Source: an uncultured Saprospiraceae bacterium (GTDB taxonomy: Bacteria > Bacteroidota > Bacteroidia > Chitinophagales > Saprospiraceae). Taken from it: 36,508 nt of DNA. This document shows, piece by piece, positions 9,407 to 27,368 of the stretch. The notes under the pieces were generated by a model. That model made no database searches, was not told the origin of the DNA, and was given only the letters and a program-made list of their open reading frames with translations. The number at the start of each line of letters is the position of its first letter. The stretch's first letter is position 1. The position numbers were made by a program, and so were the translations under genes. The stretch spans positions 1 through 36,508 of the forward strand of contig CALCMJ010000067.1 of the NCBI GenBank assembly GCA_937967615.1, given 5' to 3'.

Positions 9407-12400
9407 TTACTTAACTCCAAGAGCTCTAAGCGTTTCAATATCTAGTGCTCCAATAGGAAGACCATTGTCTTTTTGGAATTTCACTAGAGCAGCTTTAGAA
9501 GCAGCACCCCATTGGTTGTCTGCACCTGCAGATCCAACGTTATATCCTCTTGAGATAAGAGCGCTTTGTACCGCTCTGTATAACTGAGGAGTTTGGTCAG
9601 CCTCACAAACAACTTCTCTCCACTCTGTAAATCCACCAGCTTTTACTAACTGTCTTCTTGAAACAGTTTTGTATTCAGCAGGTACATCGATAGAACGTGT
9701 AGAAGCAGGTTGAGCAACTTTCTGGTATGATCTGTTCTCGTATCTAGCAGGAACATCTATACCTTGAGTCGTTGCATCAGCAGTAAGCTTCTGGTAAGAT
9801 CTCGTAGTATATTGAGCGTCACCAGTTGTTGTGTTAGCAGTTGCCTGCTGAGCCAATTTCTGGTAAGTTCTGTTCTCGTATCTAGCAGGAACATCTACAC
9901 CTTGGCTTGTTGCATCAGCAGTAAGCTTTTGGTAAGTTCTTGTAGTGTATTGTGCATCTCCAGTTGTTGTATTAGCAGAAGCAGGACTTACTAATCTTTG
10001 GTAAGTTCTAGTTTCATATCTGTTACAATCTCCGCCTGTTGAAGCAACTGCTCCACCACCGCCTGAAGTTACTAATTCAGTTCTTCTGTTTTGAGCTCTT
10101 CCCGCAGCAGTATCGTTAGACGCAATTGGAGAAGATTCTCCCATTCCATCATATGATAAGCTTGATGAAGAAACACCAGCAGCAACTAATGCATCGTAAA
10201 CAGCTTTCGCTCTTCTTCTTGAAAGGTCTTGGTTAGTAGCTTCAGGACCTTGGCTATCAGTATGGCCAATGAGTCTAGCTGTTGCACCTGAAGATTTCAA
10301 GTTAGAAGCAACTCTGTTAATTTCAGAGTAAGAAGATTGCGTAAGTGTAGCTGATCCAGATTGGAAATTTACATTTCTCAATATAGAAGAGCTTCCTCCA
10401 CCGCCACCCATATTACAAGGAACAGGAGTTGTTGTTGCATCTGCAGTAAGTTTCTGGTAAGAACGTGTCGTGTATTGTGCATCTCCAGTTACAGTGTTAG
10501 CTGATGCTGATGAAGACAATCTTTGGTACGTTCTAGTCTCATATCTTGATTCTCCACCTACAGGTTCAGCTGATGCGTCATTTGCAAGTGTTTGATATGT
10601 TCTGTTTGTGTACTGAGCATCACCAGTAGATGTCTGAGCAGTTGCCTGCTGAGAAAGTTTCTGGTAAGTTCTAGTCTCGTATCTAGCAGGAACATCTACA
10701 CCCTGTGTAGAAGCATCCGCAGTAAGTTTCTGGTAAGAACGTGTCGTGTATGTAGCATCACCAGTTGTTGTATTAGCAGTTGCCGGCTGAGCCAATTTCT
10801 GGTAAGTTCTAGTTTCATATCTAGCAGGAACATCTACAGATTGCGTTGTTGCATCAGCAGTAAGTTTCTGGTAAGAACGCGTTGTGTACTGAGCTTCCAC
10901 TGAAGTAGATGTTGAAGCACCGTTGTTAGCAATTCTCTTATATGATCTAGTTGTATACTGAGCAGGAACTTCTACTTCTGTTACAGTAGCAGGAGTTACA
11001 ACTCTTTGGTAAGTTCTCGTCTCATACTTCGCAGGAACTGTTTCAGTTCGAGTAGTAGCAGGAGCAGAAAGCTTTTGATACGTTCTTGTAGTGTATTGTG
11101 CAGGAACCGTTACCGCTTCAGTTGTAGCTGGAGAAGTAAGTTTTCTGTACGTTCTTGTTGTGTACTGAGCAGGTACGTCAACAGCCTCTGAAGAAGCAGC
11201 ACTTACAAGTTTCTTGTAAGAACGTGTTGTGTATTGCGCAGGTACTGTTACCGCTTCAGACGTAGCTGGAGAAGTAAGTTTTCTATATGTTCTAGTCGTA
11301 TACTGAGCAGGTACGTCAACAGCCTCAGAAGAAGCAGCACTTACAAGTTTTTTGTAAGAACGTGTTGTGTATTGCGCAGGAACTTGAACCGCTTCAGTTG
11401 TAGCAGGAGAAGTCAATTTTCTATATGTTCTTGTTGTGTACTGAGCAGGAACATCTACAGACTCAGAAGACGCAGGACTTACAAGTTTCTTGTAAGAACG
11501 TGTTGTGTACTGAGCAGGAACTGTAACAGCTTCAGTAGTGGCTGGTGCAGTTAATTTTCTGTACGTTCTTGTTGTGTACTGAGCAGGAACATCTACAGAC
11601 TCAGAAGACGCAGCGCTTACAAGTTTCTTGTAAGAACGTGTTGTGTACTGAGCAGGAACTTGAACTGCCTCAGTTGTAGCTGGGGAAACAAGTTTTCTGT
11701 AAGTTCTGTTAGTATATTGAGCAGGAACGTCAACAGCTTCAGAAGACGCAGCGCTTACAAGTTTCTTGTAAGAACGTGTAGTATACTGTGCAGGCACAGT
11801 TACCGCTTCTGTTGTTGCAGGACTTACTAGTTTTCTGTATGTTCTGTTAGAATATCCAGCAGGAACGTCAATTGTTTTAACACAATCAGCACCACTGTCT
11901 GTATACCCATCAGCGCAACCCATTCTGATTTGCTTAGTTACAGTTCTGAACTGAGCAGGAGTCTCTACAAGACACCATACTAAACAATCGTTAGGATCTT
12001 CAGAAAGACAAGCTCTATCTGCTTTCTTCTTAACCCACTTTGTTTCAGAAGGTTTTACTTGAATTTGTTCTTGCTCTGTAGTATACTGAGCAGGAATTCT
12101 TTCATATCTCTGAGTAGCTTCTTTAGTAAGCACTTGCTCAGTTACAGTTTCGTATTGTGCAGGTACAACTCTCAATGTAGTGTACGCATCTTTTGTCATT
12201 ACTTGTTCAGTAACAGTTTCATACTGTGCAGGAATCGCTCTCAATGTTTGGAACGCTTCTTTTACAAGTACTTGTTCAGTTACTGTTTCATATTGTGCAG
12301 GTACAACTCTTAAAGTCGTATACGCATCTTTCGTCATTACTTGCTCAGATACCGTTTCGTACTGTGCAGGTACAGCTCTAAGTGTTGTGTGCGCATCTTT

Positions 12401-14545
12401 TACTAAAACTTGCTCAGTCACCGTTTCGTACTGTGCAGGAATCACTTTAAGTGTAGTATAAGCATCTTTTGTCATTACTTGCTCAGTCACAGTTTCGTAT
12501 TGTGCAGGTACAGCTCTAAGAGTTGTGTGTGCATCTTTTACAAGAACTTGCTCAGAAACAGTTTCGTACTGTGCAGGTACAACTCTAAGAGTTGTATAGC
12601 CAGCTTTTGTCATGACTTGCTCACTTACAGTCTCGTATTGAGCAGGAATTGCTCTTAGAGTCTGGTGTGCATCTTTTACAAGCACTTGCTCAGAAACAGT
12701 TTCGTACTGTGCAGGAATAATTTTAAGTGTCGTGTAAGCATCTTTCGTCATTACTTGCTCAGTCACAGTTTCGTATTGTGCAGGTATAGCTCTAAGCGTT
12801 TGATGCGCTTCTTTTACAAGCACTTGCTCAGAAACAGTTTCGTACTGTGCAGGAATAACTCTAAGAGTTGTGTAAGCGTCTTTTGTCATTACTTGCTCAG
12901 ATACAGTTTCGTATTGTGCAGGAACGACAACAGTTACATCGTAAGCATCTTGTACAAGAACTTGCTCAGAAACAGTTTCAAATTGTGCAGGCACAACTCG
13001 CAATGTTTTGTAAGCGTCTTTTACCATTACTTGTTCAGTTACTGTCTCAAACGTAGCAGGAGTAGCTCTTAAAATTGTAGAACCTTCTTTTGCTAATACT
13101 TGCTCAGTTATAGTTTCAAACTGTGCAGGTACAACTCTTAATTCAGAACCAGCATCTGAAGACAAAACTTGCTCAGATACAGTTTCAAATTGTGCAGGAG
13201 AGATAGATACTCTAGACTCACCTTCTGAAGATAAAACTTGCTCCGTTACAGTTTCAAACTGTGCAGGTACAACTCTTAATTCAGAACCAGCATCTGAAGA
13301 CAAAACTTGCTCAGATACAGTTTCAAATTGTGCAGGAGAGATAGATACTCTAGATTCACCTTCTGAAGACAAAACTTGTTCAGTTACTGTTTCAAATTGT
13401 GCAGGAGTAATTCTGTAATCTACAATACCTCCTGATCCACTAGAAACGTTTCCGCCTCCTGAAGAACCAGCAGTTGTGTTGTATACTACAACCTCAACTC
13501 TTCTGTTCATAGCTCTACCGTCTGCAGTATCATTAGAAGCTTTAGGAGAAGTTTCTCCTTTACCCTCATAAGAAACACCAGAAACGCTACAACCAGCAGC
13601 AGAAAGAGCATCATAAACTGCTTTTGCTCGTCTTTTTGAAAGATCGAGATTGCTAGCATCTTGCCCTTGACTATCTGTGTGACCAACAATAGCAACTCTA
13701 GAAGAGCCACCTGATGCAGCCGCAGCAGACATAGCAGAAGAAATAGCAGCACAAGCAGAACTAATTGAAGCTCTTGAAGCGGCAGTTAGGTTTGCAGAAC
13801 CTGATTCAAAGTTTACATTGTCAAGAGTTGCTGATGAAGCCACAGAAGAAGTAGAACCTCCTCCTCCGCTAAATCCGCCTCCCATATCCAATGCAATTAC
13901 TTGCTCAGAAACAGTTTCAAATGTTGCAGGACTGATCTGTACTGAAGAGTTACCTTCAGAAGACAGTACTTGTTCAGTGATTGTTTCAAATTGTGCAGGT
14001 ACAACCCTAAGGTCAGCTGCTGAAACCCCATTCATATCTAGAGCTATCGTTTGCTCAGATACAGTCTCGAATTGTGCAGGACTGATTTGCACAGAAGAAG
14101 CACCTTCAGATGCGAGTACTTGCTCAGTCACAGTTTCAAACTGTGCTGGAACTACTCGTAATTCTGATCCCGCTTCTGAGGATAAAACCTGCTCAGAAAC
14201 AGTTTCAAATTGCGCAGGACTGATTTGAACTGAAGAAGCTCCTTCAGATGCGAGTACCTGCTCAGTTATTGTTTCAAACTGTGCTGGAACTACTCGTAGT
14301 TCAGATCCTGCTTCTGAAGCAAGTACTTGCTCAGTAACAGTTTCGTATTGTGGTCCAGTTACTTCCACTCTCGTGGTAGCGTCCTTTACCAATACTTGTT
14401 CCGTAATAGTTTCGTATTGATCGCCTATTAAGCATTTAGCATAACATTTCCCTGGCTCGGATGGCATCCCAGCTTCAGGTTGTGCATATGCAACGAAAGT
14501 AATAAGAACTAAAAGAGAAGTGAAAATTGTATTCAGTTTTCTCAT
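9407..14545 (-). CDS. Giant exported repeat protein with two OmpA-like domains and a C-terminal peptidoglycan-binding domain
   Basis: A 1712-residue envelope protein. A Sec signal peptide ends at A21. Repeats of exactly 23 residues built on PAQ(Y/F) fill most of the chain: 8 acidic-type copies (ETVSEQ core, residues 41-220), OmpA-like domain 1 (about 240-356), 19 acidic copies (380-820), a Cys-rich hinge (C846, C854, C858, C877, C888), 21 basic-type copies (TTRSYKKL core, 895-1376), OmpA-like domain 2 (about 1387-1493), 6 basic copies (1507-1635) and a PG_binding_1-like domain (about 1653-1710). Both OmpA domains keep GHTDSQG and the NRR motif that contact diaminopimelate in the family. Gly-rich linkers flank them. 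Neighbouring repeats alternate between two sequence types, giving a 46-residue (138-bp) super-repeat. OmpA-type binding to the cell wall follows from the family; a structural, filament or adhesin role is inference. It has its own promoter-like element and terminator. Confidence 0.9.
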
Positions 14546-14611: not shown

Positions 14612-15823
14612 TTAAACAAATATGTATTTCGGATAGCATAAATAGTATAGAATATCTCTGTCTGTATTTACTTTCAGATCAGAATACTTAAGAAAAGAGA
14701 CAATGTCCCCATTCTTTTTAAGAATCTTGATCTCATTATGTGAAGAATTATAATCCAGATTAGACTCAGAACCATCAAGTATAAGGGCCTCGGCTCTCAG
14801 TTTATCTACGTTTAGTAAACTTTCAGTTTTGTGACGAATAGAATTTACATCGTCACTGTTGAATGGGCTAGTTGATGTAATAATATGGAAAAGTTTCCTG
14901 TTTATCAAAGATTTTGAGAGGTATTGGAGTACAAAATCTGTGCTCTCAACACAGCTTTTTAGGAGAAAAAATATATCGAAATCATCAATCCTTGAAAAGC
15001 GTTTTAAATGCTCAGGATTATTTATCGTAAAGTCTTCTGAATCAATTATTTGTAATAGGTAGGGTGGGATAGACTTTAAGCAGGGTTCATCACCTATTCT
15101 TAGCTTAATTTGCTCAATGAAGCGTATTAACATTTGCTCAGCAGAGATCACCGTTTTGTGTAAATACACCTGCCAGTACATAATTCGCCTAGACATTAGA
15201 AATTTTTCTATTGAGTAGATCCCCTTCTCCTCTACCACAATTTGGTCATTTATTACATTAAGCATTTTTATAATACGATCATAACCAATGACTCCCTCAG
15301 CAACACCAGTATAAAAACTATCCCTGGTCAAGTAGTCAAGTCTGTCCATATCCAACTGGCTGGAAACGAGCTGATGTAGAAATCGTCTAGGATATTTATC
15401 CTTGAAAATCTCTATACCAAGACTCAGCTTGCCATCCATTTCGTGATTCAATGCTTCCATAAAATGGATAGACAGATCCTCATGATGTGCATTTATCAAT
15501 TTGTGTTCAAGTGCATGTGAAAATGGGCCATGCCCTATATCATGTAAAAGAATTGCAATACAGACTGCCTCAGCTTCTTCCTCCGAAATTTCAATTCCCT
15601 TGATTCTGAGTGTGTCAATGGATTTTAACATTAGATGAACCGCACCTAATGCATGGTGAAACCTTGTATGCAAGGCTCCGGGATATACATATTGTGTGAG
15701 ACCAAGTTGAGAAATGCGTCGCAGCCTCTGAAAATAGGGATGGTCTATCAATTCGTAGAGGATTTCGTATGGGAAATAAAGAAATCCGTACACAGGATCG
15801 TTGAAAATCTTCCTTTTGGTCAT
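14612..15823 (-). CDS. HD-domain phosphohydrolase (dNTPase/SAMHD1-like family)
   Basis: A 403-residue cytosolic metal-dependent phosphohydrolase. The metal site is complete: H57 in RFHHALGAVHLM, H94-D95 in LLHDIGHGPFSH, and the later aspartate in SSQLDMDRLDYLTRDS (158-163). This pattern and length fit the widespread HD family related to dGTP triphosphohydrolases and SAMHD1. The true substrate is unknown; dNTPs are the family-based guess. It is divergent from porX, with about 110 bp between the starts. Confidence 0.85.
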   Translation of the reverse strand: MTKRKIFNDPVYGFLYFPYEILYELIDHPYFQRLRRISQLGLTQYVYPGALHTRFHHALGAVHLMLKSIDTLRIKGIEISEEEAEAVCIAILLHDIGHGPFSHALEHKLINAHHEDLSIHFMEALNHEMDGKLSLGIEIFKDKYPRRFLHQLVSSQLDMDRLDYLTRDSFYTGVAEGVIGYDRIIKMLNVINDQIVVEEKGIYSIEKFLMSRRIMYWQVYLHKTVISAEQMLIRFIEQIKLRIGDEPCLKSIPPYLLQIIDSEDFTINNPEHLKRFSRIDDFDIFFLLKSCVESTDFVLQYLSKSLINRKLFHIITSTSPFNSDDVNSIRHKTESLLNVDKLRAEALILDGSESNLDYNSSHNEIKILKKNGDIVSFLKYSDLKVNTDRDILYYLCYPKYIFV

Positions 15824-19907: not shown

Positions 19908-21137
19908 ATGAGGAAGTTCTGTTTAATAAAGCCTTATGTTTTCATAGTACTTATTTCAATGTTCTTGGTACAAGAATCAGTAAGTCAAACACTTATACAT
20001 GAGTTTAATTTTGATTCGTGTATTTTGGACGATGCTCAGATGAATGCGACTGTGCCTACAAGTTCATTTGGAAACCCTTTTTGTGATTGCGGTCCTAGTG
20101 GAGATGCAGTATATTTTGATGGTACTGGGGATATGTTATTACTAGATTCCGTGGTGAAAGAGGCATTTGTTAATGATTTTACGCTAAGTTTTTACTTTTG
20201 GGTTGAGGATACGAATAAGCCTTACAACATATTTTCTATTAAAAAAAGTGAATGCTTAGATAGAGACTCAACCATGGCCATCAGATATATTCCAATTTCG
20301 AGAACTATAGAAGTAGATCTGATAAGGACCCTAGGTGATAGACTTTCTATTACTGCTGAGGTCTCAGAAGATAGATGCTGGCATCATTTGGCCTTGACAA
20401 AATCTGGTACAAATTATAGCCTTTTCCTCGATCAAGATTTTATAGAATCCAAGGATCAATTTACCAATTATACGTTCTCAGATACCAGCTCAGTTTTTAT
20501 TGGATTTTCACCTTGCACAAGTACAAGCGAATCACTTTTTACTGGAAGAATTGACGAATTGTTAATCTATGATCAGGCTTTCAATGTCAATAATTTAAAT
20601 AGCTTAAATCTCAATACGGATCAAATTATAACTGAAAACATGACGCTCTTTACAGGGGAAGGCGTTCAAATAGAAACGGGAGGTACTTGCTCAAATAATT
20701 TTAGTTGGAATCCAACAGTTGGCTTAGATGACCCTAACGCATTGGAACCTTTTATTATCCCTCCTGAGTCCACGGAATATGTGCTGAGTATTAATCATGG
20801 ATCTTGCCAAGTGATGGATACCATATTTTTAAATGTAATAACTGAAGAACAATTAGATTGCGACCAACTTCTTTTACCTAAAGCATTTACTCCCAATGGA
20901 GACAATTTAAACGATGAATATGGTATAAGCAATGATTTCATTGTAGACGAACTTAGTTATTTAAAAATATTTGATCGTTGGGGAGCCTTGGTTTTTGAAA
21001 CGAATAATGTGGATGTGAAGTGGGATGGTTCATTTAAAGGAGAACCAATGAATTCAGCTATGTTTGTTTATAAGGCAAAATATATATGTCAGGGTGAAGA
21101 GAAACTTTCTGTAGGAAGTTTTAGTATATTACGATAA
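19908..21137 (+). CDS. Secreted LamG-like protein with type B T9SS sorting domain
   Basis: A 409-residue secreted protein. A signal peptide ends near residue 26 (ESVSQ). A laminin-G/concanavalin-like domain (about 30-225) has the typical AVYFDGTGDMLLLDS start, the CWHHLALTKSGTNYSLFLD core and the GRIDELLIYDQAF end. The last 89 residues are a gliding-motility-associated C-terminal (type B sorting) domain with FTPNGDNLNDEY, LKIFDRWGALVF and WDGSFKGEPM. It is therefore probably exported by T9SS and retained at, or released from, the cell surface. Glycan binding is possible but unproven. It ends 17 bp before the DUF1573 lipoprotein gene. Confidence 0.88.
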   Translation: MRKFCLIKPYVFIVLISMFLVQESVSQTLIHEFNFDSCILDDAQMNATVPTSSFGNPFCDCGPSGDAVYFDGTGDMLLLDSVVKEAFVNDFTLSFYFWVEDTNKPYNIFSIKKSECLDRDSTMAIRYIPISRTIEVDLIRTLGDRLSITAEVSEDRCWHHLALTKSGTNYSLFLDQDFIESKDQFTNYTFSDTSSVFIGFSPCTSTSESLFTGRIDELLIYDQAFNVNNLNSLNLNTDQIITENMTLFTGEGVQIETGGTCSNNFSWNPTVGLDDPNALEPFIIPPESTEYVLSINHGSCQVMDTIFLNVITEEQLDCDQLLLPKAFTPNGDNLNDEYGISNDFIVDELSYLKIFDRWGALVFETNNVDVKWDGSFKGEPMNSAMFVYKAKYICQGEEKLSVGSFSILR

Positions 21138-23541: not shown

Positions 23542-26500
23542 TTATCTAAGTAATGTAACAGAGCCTTTGTAAGTAAATTCATAATCGTCAATGAAAGTAA
23601 TCTTCGCTAGGTAAACATATACCCCAGGTTGTAATTGTCTTCCTTTGAGTGTGCCATCCCATGCTGCAGATCCATCTGGTCCAGCCGCCTTAGTTCCGGC
23701 ATCAAATACTTGATTTCCCCAACGGTCAAAGATTCTGAAAGATTCAATATCCTTTACGCCTCTTCCTGTATTGATTTTAAATTCATCATTTTGGCCATCA
23801 CCATTTGGAGAAAATATATTACTGATAAATACATTTCTGTCAGTCTTTATAGAAACATTGATATCGTCAAATCCTCTACATCCATTTATATCAATTACGG
23901 TAACTCCATAAGTAATGTTTTGTTCAGGTGTAACAATAACCACTGAACAATTATCTGTCTTACAATCAAGGAACGTAAACGGATTCCAATTTATAGAGTC
24001 AATAGGCTCCTGTGAATCTATATTTACGTTGAGGACAGTAGTAGTATCTCCAAGATCTACAATTATGTCTGGACCTAGGTCTACTACAACAGGAGCAGGT
24101 TGTGTCACTTCCATAGTTTCTTGTGCAGAACAACCAGCCTCATCAAACACCGTTATGTTATACATTCCAGCTACAACATTAATGCATGAGTCTATAGGGA
24201 CAGGTAAACCAAAATTCACACTGAATCTATAGTTAGTTCCAGTTCCACCAGAGACATTTTCTATTTCAATACATGTGCTGCCTCCAAAACAATCTGGTTC
24301 TTCAGGAGGCACAGTGTTAAAGCTTAAAGCTTGTGGAGCAACAATATCATAACAGGCAGAATCTGAACAGCCTTCTGTATCCGTTACTGTCACGCAATAT
24401 GTTCCTACACCTAGGTTGTCAGCAATTGCAGTTGTGGAAACTGAGTTTGTCCAATCGTAATCCAATGCTCCTGCATTTCCTCCTGTAACACTAACACCAA
24501 TCATTGCTGAATTCCCATCTGCACAGCTCAAATTTAATGTTGTGAACGGATCTATTTCCACAACCATACTGTCTGGCTGTTCTATCAAAACCGAATCAAT
24601 TATTGTACATCCAGGATTTGATTCATCTGTTATTTCTATATAGTGAATACCAGCTGAAAGGTTTGAGTTTGTGTTTCCTACACTTCCATCGGTTAACCAG
24701 TTAAACGTATAATTTCCATTAGGGGCAAATCCACCTTCGGCAACAATGCTTGCTTCACCATTTGCAATCCCATAGCAAGAAGTTGCAGTAAAGCTGCTTG
24801 CGGTGCTCGATAAACTTATAGGTTCTACTGTTCCTATTTCAAAAAATATTGTATCAGACGCACACAAACCATCACTGGCTATTACCCAATTTGTACCTAC
24901 ATCTAACATGGTTGCATTTCCGAACGTACCAAACTCGGTTTCTCCAGAAGACCATAAGAAATCATACAATTGTGTACCGCCTACTATTTCTGCAAGTGCT
25001 TGTCCGTTTGCTGCTCCAAAACAACTCACTTCTTTTGTTAAATTTACTTCTACTTCAAGACGTTCAGGACATGGTACTTCTACTGTAGGTAAAATAAAAG
25101 TACATCCGTCTGAGTCTGTCACTGAAATTCCATCAAAGTTTCCGCATGGAATTGCTGGTAATATAAAGTTTGTAGAAATTCCATTTGGATGATTCCATTC
25201 CATCGTATAGCCCATACCTGATCCACCAGAAACCAGCAGGTTTATTGACCCATCTGTGCCGTTAGGGCAGGTAGGTGGATTTGTTACAACTTGTACGTCA
25301 AGTGTACCTGCATTTGAAATGGTCGCAGTTGCAACTTGAGAGCAATTACCATCTAAGTCAGTTACAGTAACCGTATAAAATCCCGCAGGAACATTATTTA
25401 CTATCGCAGTATTTCCAACTGTGTCTCCATCTACGTCAGTCCATTCAATTTGTAAATTGGATCCTCCGCTTATAATTGTTACTTCTAAGGTTCCACCTGC
25501 TCCTGTACCATCACAATCTATAGAGCTATTACTTGCTTGAATAATTAGAGGCTCAGATCCTGTTATTTCAAACGTTGCTATTTTTTCGCAGTTGAGATCG
25601 TCAGTGATTGTAACCTCATACATGCCTGGCACAACATTGTCAATTCTGTTTGTCATGTTCCCGTTATCCCATTCGTAAGATAGGGCAGGGGTGCCTCCAG
25701 TTACGATGACTTCAACAAAGGAATTGTTTCCATCACAATCTGGTCCTGCTGAATTTTGTTGAATGATGAGTTCGGGTGAAGTTATAATTTCGAAATTAAT
25801 TGTATCCAAACACCCTGTGTTATCTTCTTGTAAGACTAGATTATAAACACCAGGAGGAATCTCATTAAAAATATACGTGTTCATACCAAGAACGCCTTGG
25901 TCACCACCTAAAACAAGATCAAAAGACTCGTCATACATTTTGAATAAGGGGTGATCAGCAGGGCCTCCTGTAGTGTTAAACGCAGACACTCTAAACTGCC
26001 CAAATCCTTCACCACAATCGTGTTGAAAAACCTCAAAGACAAAATCTAGTTCGCCTGCGGCGTTGACATCAATTGTGTCTAAGAGCCGGCATCCAAAGGC
26101 ATCTATAACTTCTATAGGGTAATCACCAGACTTAACAAAATTATCAGTCCACTTTGAAGCCAATGGTCCATTGATAAAATATTGGTCTCCTGGTTGAACA
26201 GGCGTACCTCCTACGGGAGTAATACATAGAATCCCATCAACAGCTCCAGGACAACTTGGTTCTTGAACAATGTCTACAATGAGAGACATGGGTGTTGTCA
26301 TTAACGTAACATCTTGGATCACTTTACAACCATCATTATCTGTAACAGTAACAGAGTAAAGTCCATTACACAGTCCTGAGATAGTATCCACATTAAAGAT
26401 AAAATTTGACCATTCTACAGTATAATCTGTCCTGTTGATGTTAGTTATTCTTATTTCTCCATTGCAGATGTAATCACATGCAGTAGGGATGAGTTCCAAA

Positions 26501-27333
26501 TCATAAGTAAGTGGGTCTCCAAACTGAATAGGAACTGGCAAACTCGTAATTGTACCAGCAGCATCCATTACTGAAATTGAGATAGCTCCTGGAGCTAGAC
26601 CACAAATAGTTGTGTCATGTCCTTCTGGAAAACCAGATATAAATCCTAAAGGTGTATTAATATCATAGGGAGGAACACCTCCACCAATTGAAAAAGTAAT
26701 GCATCCATCCATTGCATTCGTTGCACAGGAAGTTGCATTTATTGTTAAATCTGGACAGGCAATGCTAATACCATCGCCTGAAAGATTAAAAAGAATTGAA
26801 TCCAGTGCGCAAGTAGGCTGGGTAATTTCAAAATTCACTCCAGCATCTATATCAGTTACATTATCAGTCATAATGAGTGGACTGAAATCAGCACAATTCC
26901 CTACCGCTTCAAAACATAGACTAATCATTGTACTGCCATCTTCTAAACAGGTTCCTACGCCGGATGCTGTCCAGATAAGTCCATAGTTCCCATTTGTTAT
27001 TTCACCAACATTTTGTCCAAAGGATCCATCTGAGGGTAAATCTGTAGTTGAGAAATCTGCATTTACAAATGCGATAACATTGGGGTCAAATGAAATTGAA
27101 AATTGTAGAGCTGAGATTGCGACGAAGTTTGACACATCTAAGTCAAGGCAAAACATATCGCCCGTATTTATTACAGCAGGTATATTTGAAAAGTTTAATT
27201 CAGGGTAAACATCATATTCTGCATCGCAGTCAAATCCGGGAGGAGGGTCTGGACATTGAATTACTTGAGCATTAATTCCTAAGGCACAAAAAACAACAAA
27301 TACAATCGCAAAAAGCTTTTTCAATATGTTCAT
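23542..27333 (-). CDS. Large cell-surface adhesin: cohesin-like domain, SprB-like repeats, type B T9SS sorting domain
   Basis: A 1263-residue secreted protein. The signal peptide ends at INA22. Residues about 45-165 look like a cohesin-type domain (NTGDMFCLDLDVSNF, ALQFSISFDPNVIAF, MISLCFEAVG). From about 200 to 1130 come at least seven SprB-like repeats with a GG-T and Y-x-W core, for example VTGGTPALSYEWDNG followed by PGMYEVTITDDLNC, each rich in Cys. The last 98 residues are a gliding-motility-associated sorting domain (IFSPNGDGQNDEF, FRIFDRWGNQVF, WDGTLKGRQLQPGVYVY). SprB is the mobile adhesin of gliding Flavobacterium; whether this one moves is unknown. I chose the ATG at 27333 because the upstream TTG at 27363 lies inside the -7 promoter element. 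Confidence 0.9.
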   Translation of the reverse strand: MNILKKLFAIVFVVFCALGINAQVIQCPDPPPGFDCDAEYDVYPELNFSNIPAVINTGDMFCLDLDVSNFVAISALQFSISFDPNVIAFVNADFSTTDLPSDGSFGQNVGEITNGNYGLIWTASGVGTCLEDGSTMISLCFEAVGNCADFSPLIMTDNVTDIDAGVNFEITQPTCALDSILFNLSGDGISIACPDLTINATSCATNAMDGCITFSIGGGVPPYDINTPLGFISGFPEGHDTTICGLAPGAISISVMDAAGTITSLPVPIQFGDPLTYDLELIPTACDYICNGEIRITNINRTDYTVEWSNFIFNVDTISGLCNGLYSVTVTDNDGCKVIQDVTLMTTPMSLIVDIVQEPSCPGAVDGILCITPVGGTPVQPGDQYFINGPLASKWTDNFVKSGDYPIEVIDAFGCRLLDTIDVNAAGELDFVFEVFQHDCGEGFGQFRVSAFNTTGGPADHPLFKMYDESFDLVLGGDQGVLGMNTYIFNEIPPGVYNLVLQEDNTGCLDTINFEIITSPELIIQQNSAGPDCDGNNSFVEVIVTGGTPALSYEWDNGNMTNRIDNVVPGMYEVTITDDLNCEKIATFEITGSEPLIIQASNSSIDCDGTGAGGTLEVTIISGGSNLQIEWTDVDGDTVGNTAIVNNVPAGFYTVTVTDLDGNCSQVATATISNAGTLDVQVVTNPPTCPNGTDGSINLLVSGGSGMGYTMEWNHPNGISTNFILPAIPCGNFDGISVTDSDGCTFILPTVEVPCPERLEVEVNLTKEVSCFGAANGQALAEIVGGTQLYDFLWSSGETEFGTFGNATMLDVGTNWVIASDGLCASDTIFFEIGTVEPISLSSTASSFTATSCYGIANGEASIVAEGGFAPNGNYTFNWLTDGSVGNTNSNLSAGIHYIEITDESNPGCTIIDSVLIEQPDSMVVEIDPFTTLNLSCADGNSAMIGVSVTGGNAGALDYDWTNSVSTTAIADNLGVGTYCVTVTDTEGCSDSACYDIVAPQALSFNTVPPEEPDCFGGSTCIEIENVSGGTGTNYRFSVNFGLPVPIDSCINVVAGMYNITVFDEAGCSAQETMEVTQPAPVVVDLGPDIIVDLGDTTTVLNVNIDSQEPIDSINWNPFTFLDCKTDNCSVVIVTPEQNITYGVTVIDINGCRGFDDINVSIKTDRNVFISNIFSPNGDGQNDEFKINTGRGVKDIESFRIFDRWGNQVFDAGTKAAGPDGSAAWDGTLKGRQLQPGVYVYLAKITFIDDYEFTYKGSVTLLR

Positions 27334-27360
27334 AGCAAATCCAATGGTTAATAACGGATG

Positions 27361-27368
27361 CAAATATA
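27361..27368 (-). promoter_or_regulatory. Predicted -7 element of the adhesin operon
   Basis: The minus strand reads TATATTTG, a full TAnnTTTG match, 28 bases before the chosen ATG of the adhesin. No good -33 TTTG is visible at the expected distance. Confidence 0.45.

Follow-up and report, generated by a model that had tools for sequence, protein, structure and literature searches.

Near-equal repeat arms, mirrored inserts and facing charges point to a predicted beta ribbon in a giant peptidoglycan-binding protein of Saprospiraceae

Introduction

In SMC/Rad50 proteins, antiparallel coiled-coil arms of equal length run out to a hinge and back, with globular parts at the termini and an ABC ATPase head. 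Long beta-hairpin stems are found in lysenin, aerolysin and phage tail proteins. Repeat proteins normally fold unit by unit, and in the wall-linked stalk adhesins SasG/Aap G5-E the repeat number sets the length, each repeat folding within itself. Here we analyse a 1712-residue protein encoded by an open reading frame (ORF) at positions 9407-14545 of the reverse strand of a 36,508-nucleotide stretch of DNA (the window; contig CALCMJ010000067.1 of assembly GCA_937967615.1, C67 of a 3.8 Mb genome in 190 contigs) from an uncultured Saprospiraceae bacterium. Sequence statistics and structure prediction indicate that this protein is very probably a giant antiparallel beta ribbon of two strands, amounting to a single hairpin, which would be bound to peptidoglycan and would hold a Cys-rich tip at a distance set by the number of its repeat units.

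Like the arms of SMC/Rad50, the chain appears to run out to a hinge and back with equal arms and globular terminal parts. Unlike them, its arms are predicted to be beta rather than helical and consist of near-identical repeats of varying number, a signal peptide can be read by eye, and no ATPase domain is among the six Pfam families in the scan, so that the protein was not placed with SMC/Rad50. With OmpA-like/Pal peptidoglycan-binding proteins (PF00691) it shares two OmpA domains well over the cut-off, but no OmpA barrel family appeared in the Pfam scan and the OmpA domains are here insertions in the predicted ribbon. The likeness to SasG/Aap G5-E lies in the wall link and in a variable repeat number as length setting; the difference is that the units seem to require a partner in the other arm, since partner-free folding of the repeats was not seen in a low-confidence AlphaFold2 fragment. 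Many weak, non-significant Foldseek neighbours of our models were beta-hairpin stems of pore-formers and phage tails (lysenin, aerolysin), and no relationship to these is claimed.

Two repeat arrays around a Cys-rich hinge

A preliminary description of this DNA, made from its letters, had counted 8+19 acidic and 21+6 basic repeat units and had placed arms of about 509 and 522 residues around a Cys-rich hinge centred near residue 865. Our repeat census bore out the count, with a period of 23 residues, and together with the Cys and OmpA positions it confirmed the arm lengths. The acidic units are anchored at residues 44-209 (8 units) and 384-798 (19 units), and the basic units at 898-1358 (21 units) and 1510-1625 (6 units, the last being YKTVSRRQ). 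Unit spacing is 23 except for a step of 27 (159 to 186), 45 across the hinge, 32 at the Cys loop, and the OmpA insertions. Cys 846, 854, 858, 877 and 888 centre on residue 865, and the hinge is flanked by the degenerate unit YTTEQEQI (821) and by FRTVTKQI (866), both outside the 27/27 count. The plan is not a product of chance, because a 1717-residue open frame in a genome of the same genus has the same plan. The arms had also been described as charge-opposed. This holds for whole arms with their OmpA domains (net -54 in the N arm, +30 in the C arm), but segregation is uneven per 23-residue unit: hinge-proximal acidic units carry 0 to -1 each, and several distal basic-side stretches 0 or -1.

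Above cut-off, the Pfam scan matched only OmpA in two stretches, residues 246-348 (62.6 bits) and 1394-1487 (82 bits; cut-off 27.2), and a C-terminal PG_binding_1 (PF01471, 31.7 bits, cut-off 23). Both OmpA domains contain GHTD, NxxLSxxRA and NRR, which we take to be OmpA-like motifs, and some NCBIfam OmpA-type models exceed their cut-off on summed score. For PG_binding_1, score and fold agree: residues 368-430 of a modelled 433-residue relative match SltB3 (Z 9.9, root-mean-square deviation 1.4, 61 aligned residues). The VIA-align rows span the PG_binding_1 part only, and the arm fold was not inferred from them. Neither array is explained by the OmpA and PG_binding_1 domains.

By eye, a two-unit (46-residue) alternation can be followed in both arms, and the acidic and basic arrays each switch unit type about 15 units from the hinge, a further mirrored feature.

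The arms lengthen together and carry mirrored inserts

A scan of named genomes located 279 hinge loci, and our sample consisted of the best 80 of these 279 plus relatives. It gave 118 hinge-bearing ORFs, or 113 after removal of contained copies, of which 93, mostly from Saprospiraceae and including the source protein, could be measured; the other 20 were cut by contig ends or had no recognised N or C motif. Ninety-two proteins were parsed into units (L047/L080 were dropped). The parser takes some divergent units for inserts (L118, with raw arms of 158/167, was scored 2 units off), which biases mismatch counts towards inequality.

Among the 93 proteins, N/C arm lengths range from 66/66 to 797/779 residues, a roughly twelve-fold span over which both arms change together (Pearson 0.979). 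Examples are 66/66, 89/89, 112/112, 158/167, 181/190, 204/213, 250/259, 273/282, 342/351, 434/443, 480/466, 682/675 and 797/779. The correlation reaches 0.996 (slope 0.966) in the 79 proteins with the same number of OmpA domains in each arm, and in the 14 with OmpA in the C arm only, the C arm is longer by 57 to 129 residues. A common C-arm surplus of 8 or 9 equals one Cys loop beside the hinge, and the five proteins that lack this loop, with arms of 66 to 112 residues, show no length difference between the arms at all. In 92 proteins the mean absolute N-C difference was 7.6 residues, against 134 with permuted arms. Arm differences of the parsed proteins fell within 0.3 unit in 68, at 0.3-0.75 in 3, at about one unit in 17 and at 1.3 or more in 4, at least one of the last through parser error; homologues thus keep their arms nearly equal while total length varies, and strongly unequal arms are rare.

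Relatedness was taken into account on a tree of the hinge and C-terminal domain. Contrasts of repeat length correlated with r 0.775 (91 contrasts; 55 of 67 non-zero ones of the same sign), and those of raw arm length with r 0.865 (52/64 of the same sign). When independent pairs differing in N were compared, 24 of 28 had shifted in the same direction in C, for example by 12/12, 9/9 and 4/4 units.

Large inserts behave in the same way. They occur in both arms of 28 of the 92 proteins, in the N arm only in 1, in the C arm only in 5 and in neither in 58. For the 27 proteins with exactly one insert of at least 25 residues per arm and at least 4 units, the insert positions in the two arms differed by 0.96 unit on average, compared to 3.73 expected, and 0 of 20000 random draws were as low; for the 17 distinct configurations the values were 1.29 and 4.27. 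The source protein lies outside this test, its N arm being parsed with two inserts; its two OmpA domains sit 19 and 21 units away from the hinge. Mirrored inserts comprise pairs of OmpA domains, OmpA opposite a non-OmpA linker, and size-matched Cys-loop inserts (38/37, 49/46, 52/50, 32/32). Among the 69 proteins without OmpA, an extra pair of Cys in the C arm was found in 9/9 with a Cys-bearing N arm and in 5/60 others (Fisher 3.5e-8), and insert sizes in the N and C arms correlate (rho 0.93, n 9).

Co-variation of N with C would be the same evidence if the arms paired between molecules, as antiparallel dimers or polymers forming a fibre. However, the hinge core measures 24 residues in 113/113 proteins (the search pattern admitted only lengths of 20-25), the single-chain AlphaFold2 models described below keep their strands up to the hinge, and proximity favours a hairpin. 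We therefore consider pairing between chains unlikely, and pairing within one chain would be the preferred reading.

Facing charges co-vary in the predicted register

Charge tests were performed with 40 proteins picked for exact unit register, a choice that favours well-paired proteins, and arms were permuted within unit-number groups of three or more. Facing positions were tabulated in 43 proteins. In the predicted register, the residue at N position 14 is mostly K and the one opposite, at C position 3, mostly E; their charges are opposite in 55% and like in 7%. For N 19 facing C 21 these values are 45% and 0%, and for N 21 facing C 19 they are 30% and 0%. The 305 unit pairs of the 40 proteins gave a facing charge product of -468, compared to -333 +/- 12 when units were shuffled within each protein. 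When C arms were exchanged at random between proteins with the same number of units, it weakened from -400 to -318 +/- 13. Unit shift 0 gave the best facing charge (-1.30 per interior unit, with -1.01 or -0.89 after one-unit shifts), and in a 15-protein group site-centred co-variation was most negative at shifts 0 to +2 (-28, -22, -34), and smaller minima appeared at -4 and +4 (-20, -17).

Net charge is segregated as a tendency, the N arm being negative in 86/93 and the C arm positive in 78/93 proteins, but segregation fails in some relatives. Local salt bridges thus seem to be more important than bulk charge. A rival idea is that the arrays are mostly disordered, polyampholyte-like chains joined by bulk charge only. 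The Thr/Ala/Pro-rich arms, the opposite net arm charges of many proteins and the low predicted template modelling score (pTM) of our models would suit such chains, but an exact 23-residue register with conserved hydrophobic positions would not, and arms are equal even at about zero net charge (L116, L118). Pairing purely by bulk charge was rejected because near-neutral relatives keep equal arms, and we regard disordered arrays as very improbable.

Strands are predicted where a partner arm is present

Pairing was read from DSSP strand boundaries in the best of five AlphaFold2 models per job. For the 433-residue relative, modelled with 15 sequences, each unit forms strands of 12 and 7 residues. 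N strands i..j mirror C strands 373-j..373-i, the sum (S) dropping to 364 between the 9-residue loop and the hinge, and strands 7-9 and 365-367 at the putative base sum to 374. Over residues 16-153, the mirror agreement of strand states is 99.3% at S=373, compared to 84.1% and 79.7% one unit away, and the low-confidence stretches 86-98 and 275-284 are also roughly mirrored.

Because equal periods alone could produce part of this mirroring, an asymmetric second job was run with source residues 542-1009, in which 12 full acidic units stand against 5 basic units after the Cys-loop unit. The row of L113 was left out of A4 (one unit out of register), as was L108 (a fragment out of phase). The prediction recorded before the result was that fragment residues 1-154 would have no strands. 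In the model, the partnerless acidic residues 1-156 are strandless, with a predicted local distance difference test (pLDDT) of 24-37 in this block, and from 157 on the strands mirror at 623 (source S=1705), or at 614 between the loop and the hinge, with the exception of a 3-residue loop strand. The models thus suggest, at modest confidence, that nearly identical units form strands only if they have a counterpart in the opposite arm. That the 23-residue units instead fold locally, as a beta-solenoid or a string of small domains, with equal arms due to a shared tendency to repeat expansion, would fit the period and PA spacing common to both arms and the freely varying unit number, but it was rejected as largely refuted in silico by the 156 strandless N-arm residues beside nearly identical units with strands, a shared expansion tendency predicts neither mirrored inserts nor register-specific charge co-variation, and it appears to us the least credible of the readings.

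Proposed architecture

Arm-length co-variation, mirrored inserts, charge co-variation and the two AlphaFold2 jobs all agree with the earlier suggestion of a fold-back at the hinge that lets the arrays pair, which we consider well supported in silico. In the proposed arrangement, the acidic N arm would run out to the Cys-rich hinge and the basic C arm would return. In the source protein, beyond the Cys loop, residue i would pair with approximately residue 1705-i. Each 23-residue unit would contribute a 12-residue and a 7-residue strand, with PA kinks between them opposite the PA kinks of the other arm, and the OmpA domains would loop out of the ribbon. The base would be formed by the N-terminal CYAKC and the C-terminal GGFTEW/PG-binding end, bound to peptidoglycan, and the strongly conserved hinge (13 invariant columns among 22 hinge sequences) would be the far tip. 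Such a molecule may serve as a stalk or strap of evolutionarily adjustable length, keeping the tip off or along the wall, and the domains fit a role as cell-wall fibre or strut.

It had further been suggested that the two OmpA domains come side by side. They are predicted to be near each other on opposite strands, but not side by side: residue 381, in the first unit after OmpA domain 1, pairs with 1324 in the predicted register, and the array before OmpA domain 2 ends at 1377, so that the domains would bulge from opposite strands about 2.3 units apart. With about 650 residues per arm without OmpA, full extension at 0.33 nm per residue would give the ribbon a length of at most about 0.2 micrometre. 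The periplasm is narrower than this, and the ribbon would then follow the wall, coil up or extend out of the cell.

Several observations weigh against this reading. The sampled proteins are mutually related. Arms are unequal in L163 (181/281), L171 (319/373), L145 (637/582), L113 (388/420), and L111 and L161 (both 181/213); several length outliers fall at whole-unit steps (-14, +32, +54, +100), and others do not (-55, -18, +12 to +19). Four of the 28 independent pairs alter one arm only, at least one of them through parser error. Six proteins have a large insert in a single arm (1 N, 5 C), and in 3 of the 27 with mirrored inserts these are 3-4 units apart. The residue-shift charge scan is not sharply peaked at 0 (-0.076, -0.060 and -0.065 at -1, 0 and +1; -0.064 at +5), and net charge is weak or reversed in some relatives (L116, -1/-4; L065, +4/-3). 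AlphaFold2 confidence is modest (pLDDT 71.7 and pTM 0.39 for the 433-residue relative; 54.6 and 0.19 for the asymmetric fragment).

No Pfam or NCBIfam model above cut-off covers the arms or hinge among the matches listed. A PDB sequence search with the whole protein placed the best 60 of 68 matches all on the OmpA regions, the hinge profile had no meaningful PDB match (best E 1.6), and Foldseek returned 0 matches at E <= 0.001 for both models, the weak neighbours other than hairpin stems being virus capsids and unrelated folds. Literature listings with partial journal coverage contained no description of this protein or of a giant beta hairpin of paired repeat arrays, which does not prove absence. 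Since these searches gave neither a curated family nor a literature description, and neither a significant structural match to the arms nor a matching sequence for the hinge, we rate the building principle as new, to the extent that statistics and prediction allow. We incline to the view that the architecture has not been described before: two complementary arrays would form an antiparallel beta zipper within one molecule, and its arms would lengthen together in evolution so that the distance between peptidoglycan and the conserved Cys-rich tip can be adjusted, as in a molecular ruler. Units that seemingly fold only against distant partners would require unit number to change in two places together, which offers a natural system for studying co-evolution and the origin of paired repeat expansions, and a design lead for very long single-chain beta ribbons. 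Matches to NF038254 (EirA) reach into the hinge but stay below the cut-off of 45 (25.9 bits in L016, 15.8 in L157); this model was matched in 3/60 genomes at E <= 0.001 and in 0/60 over cut-off, and remains a lead only.

Family, gene context and coordinates

The hinge sequence is present in 33/60 genomes of relatives of the source and in 11/395 genomes drawn across the phylum, the source genome being counted in both. The best 80 of the 279 loci belong mostly to uncultured Saprospiraceae, with Portibacter, Lewinella, Aureispira and a Chitinophagales bacterium. This points to an unstudied, putative envelope protein that would bind peptidoglycan and is common in Saprospiraceae. No hinge match was found on plasmids at 1e-5. 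Family members typically have the order CYAKC, N arm, hinge [27 protein letters not shown] arm, [12 protein letters not shown]_binding_1. Exceptions occur, among them L088, a distant relative that by eye has an OmpA-like C-terminus in place of PG_binding_1. OmpA domains are absent in 69/93 measured proteins. In 78 of the 100 proteins for which 1400 bp or more of upstream sequence was available, the next gene upstream is the same HD-domain gene (median gap 82 bp), so that most of these proteins are orthologues at one locus.

The source genome has three paralogues, L016 (G000:C186), L018 (G000:C1) and L010 (G000:C85). L016, of 219 residues, is almost armless, and L018 and L010 comprise one ended by a contig edge and one of 518 residues with degenerate repeats and no Pfam match. 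Because the 219-residue paralogue keeps little beyond hinge and PG_binding_1, the tip and the wall anchor may do the work, with the ribbon as a spacer between them. In L067, a 2043-residue frame on the forward strand, an array module is apparently inserted in a much larger protein, by eye of alpha-2-macroglobulin/MG type; its order is basic-type units, acidic-type units, hinge, basic-type units, and the additional basic-type units ahead of the acidic ones might form two hairpins.

Table 1. Features of the 1712-residue protein gene, in window positions.
Feature	Position	Strand	Basis
Whole gene, predicted two-arm beta-ribbon protein, 1712 residues	9407..14545	-	ORF; same plan in same-genus genome
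Likely Sec signal peptide, residues 1-21	14483..14545	-	Reading by eye; no lipobox seen
CYAKC motif, residues 34-38, start of N arm	14432..14446	-	Cys positions; conserved in 15-row alignment
Distal acidic array, 8 units	13862..14425	-	Repeat census
OmpA domain 1	13502..13810	-	PF00691, 62.6 bits
Proximal acidic array, 19 units	12095..13405	-	Repeat census; partnerless part strandless in second AlphaFold2 model
Hinge (putative tip) with [26 protein letters not shown]	11960..12094	-	13 invariant columns, 22 hinge sequences; core length 24 in 113/113
First basic-side unit with 9-residue Cys-loop insertion	11864..11959	-	Repeat census, unit parse; explains common +8/+9 C-arm surplus
Proximal basic array, 21 units	10415..11863	-	Repeat census
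OmpA domain 2, flanked by Cys 1377 and 1507	10085..10366	-	PF00691, 82 bits; Cys positions
Distal basic array, 6 units	9614..10027	-	Repeat census
[11 protein letters not shown], putative hairpin base opposite CYAKC	9605..9637	-	Conserved in 15-row alignment; relative's strands 7-9 and 365-367 sum to 374
PG_binding_1 domain	9419..9577	-	31.7 bits; fold match of relative's model (SltB3 Z 9.9)

Forward-strand ORFs within 9407-14545 were rejected as genes and are probably by-products of the repeats; forward-strand matches there are broken by stops. In the window, the array gene is immediately preceded on its upstream side by a gene at 14612-15823 on the reverse strand that reads, by eye, as HD-domain-like. 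Large predicted secreted proteins are encoded at 19908-21137 (forward) and 23542-27363 (reverse), with (F/T)(S/T)PNGD-type C-termini that are presumably typical of Bacteroidota surface proteins.

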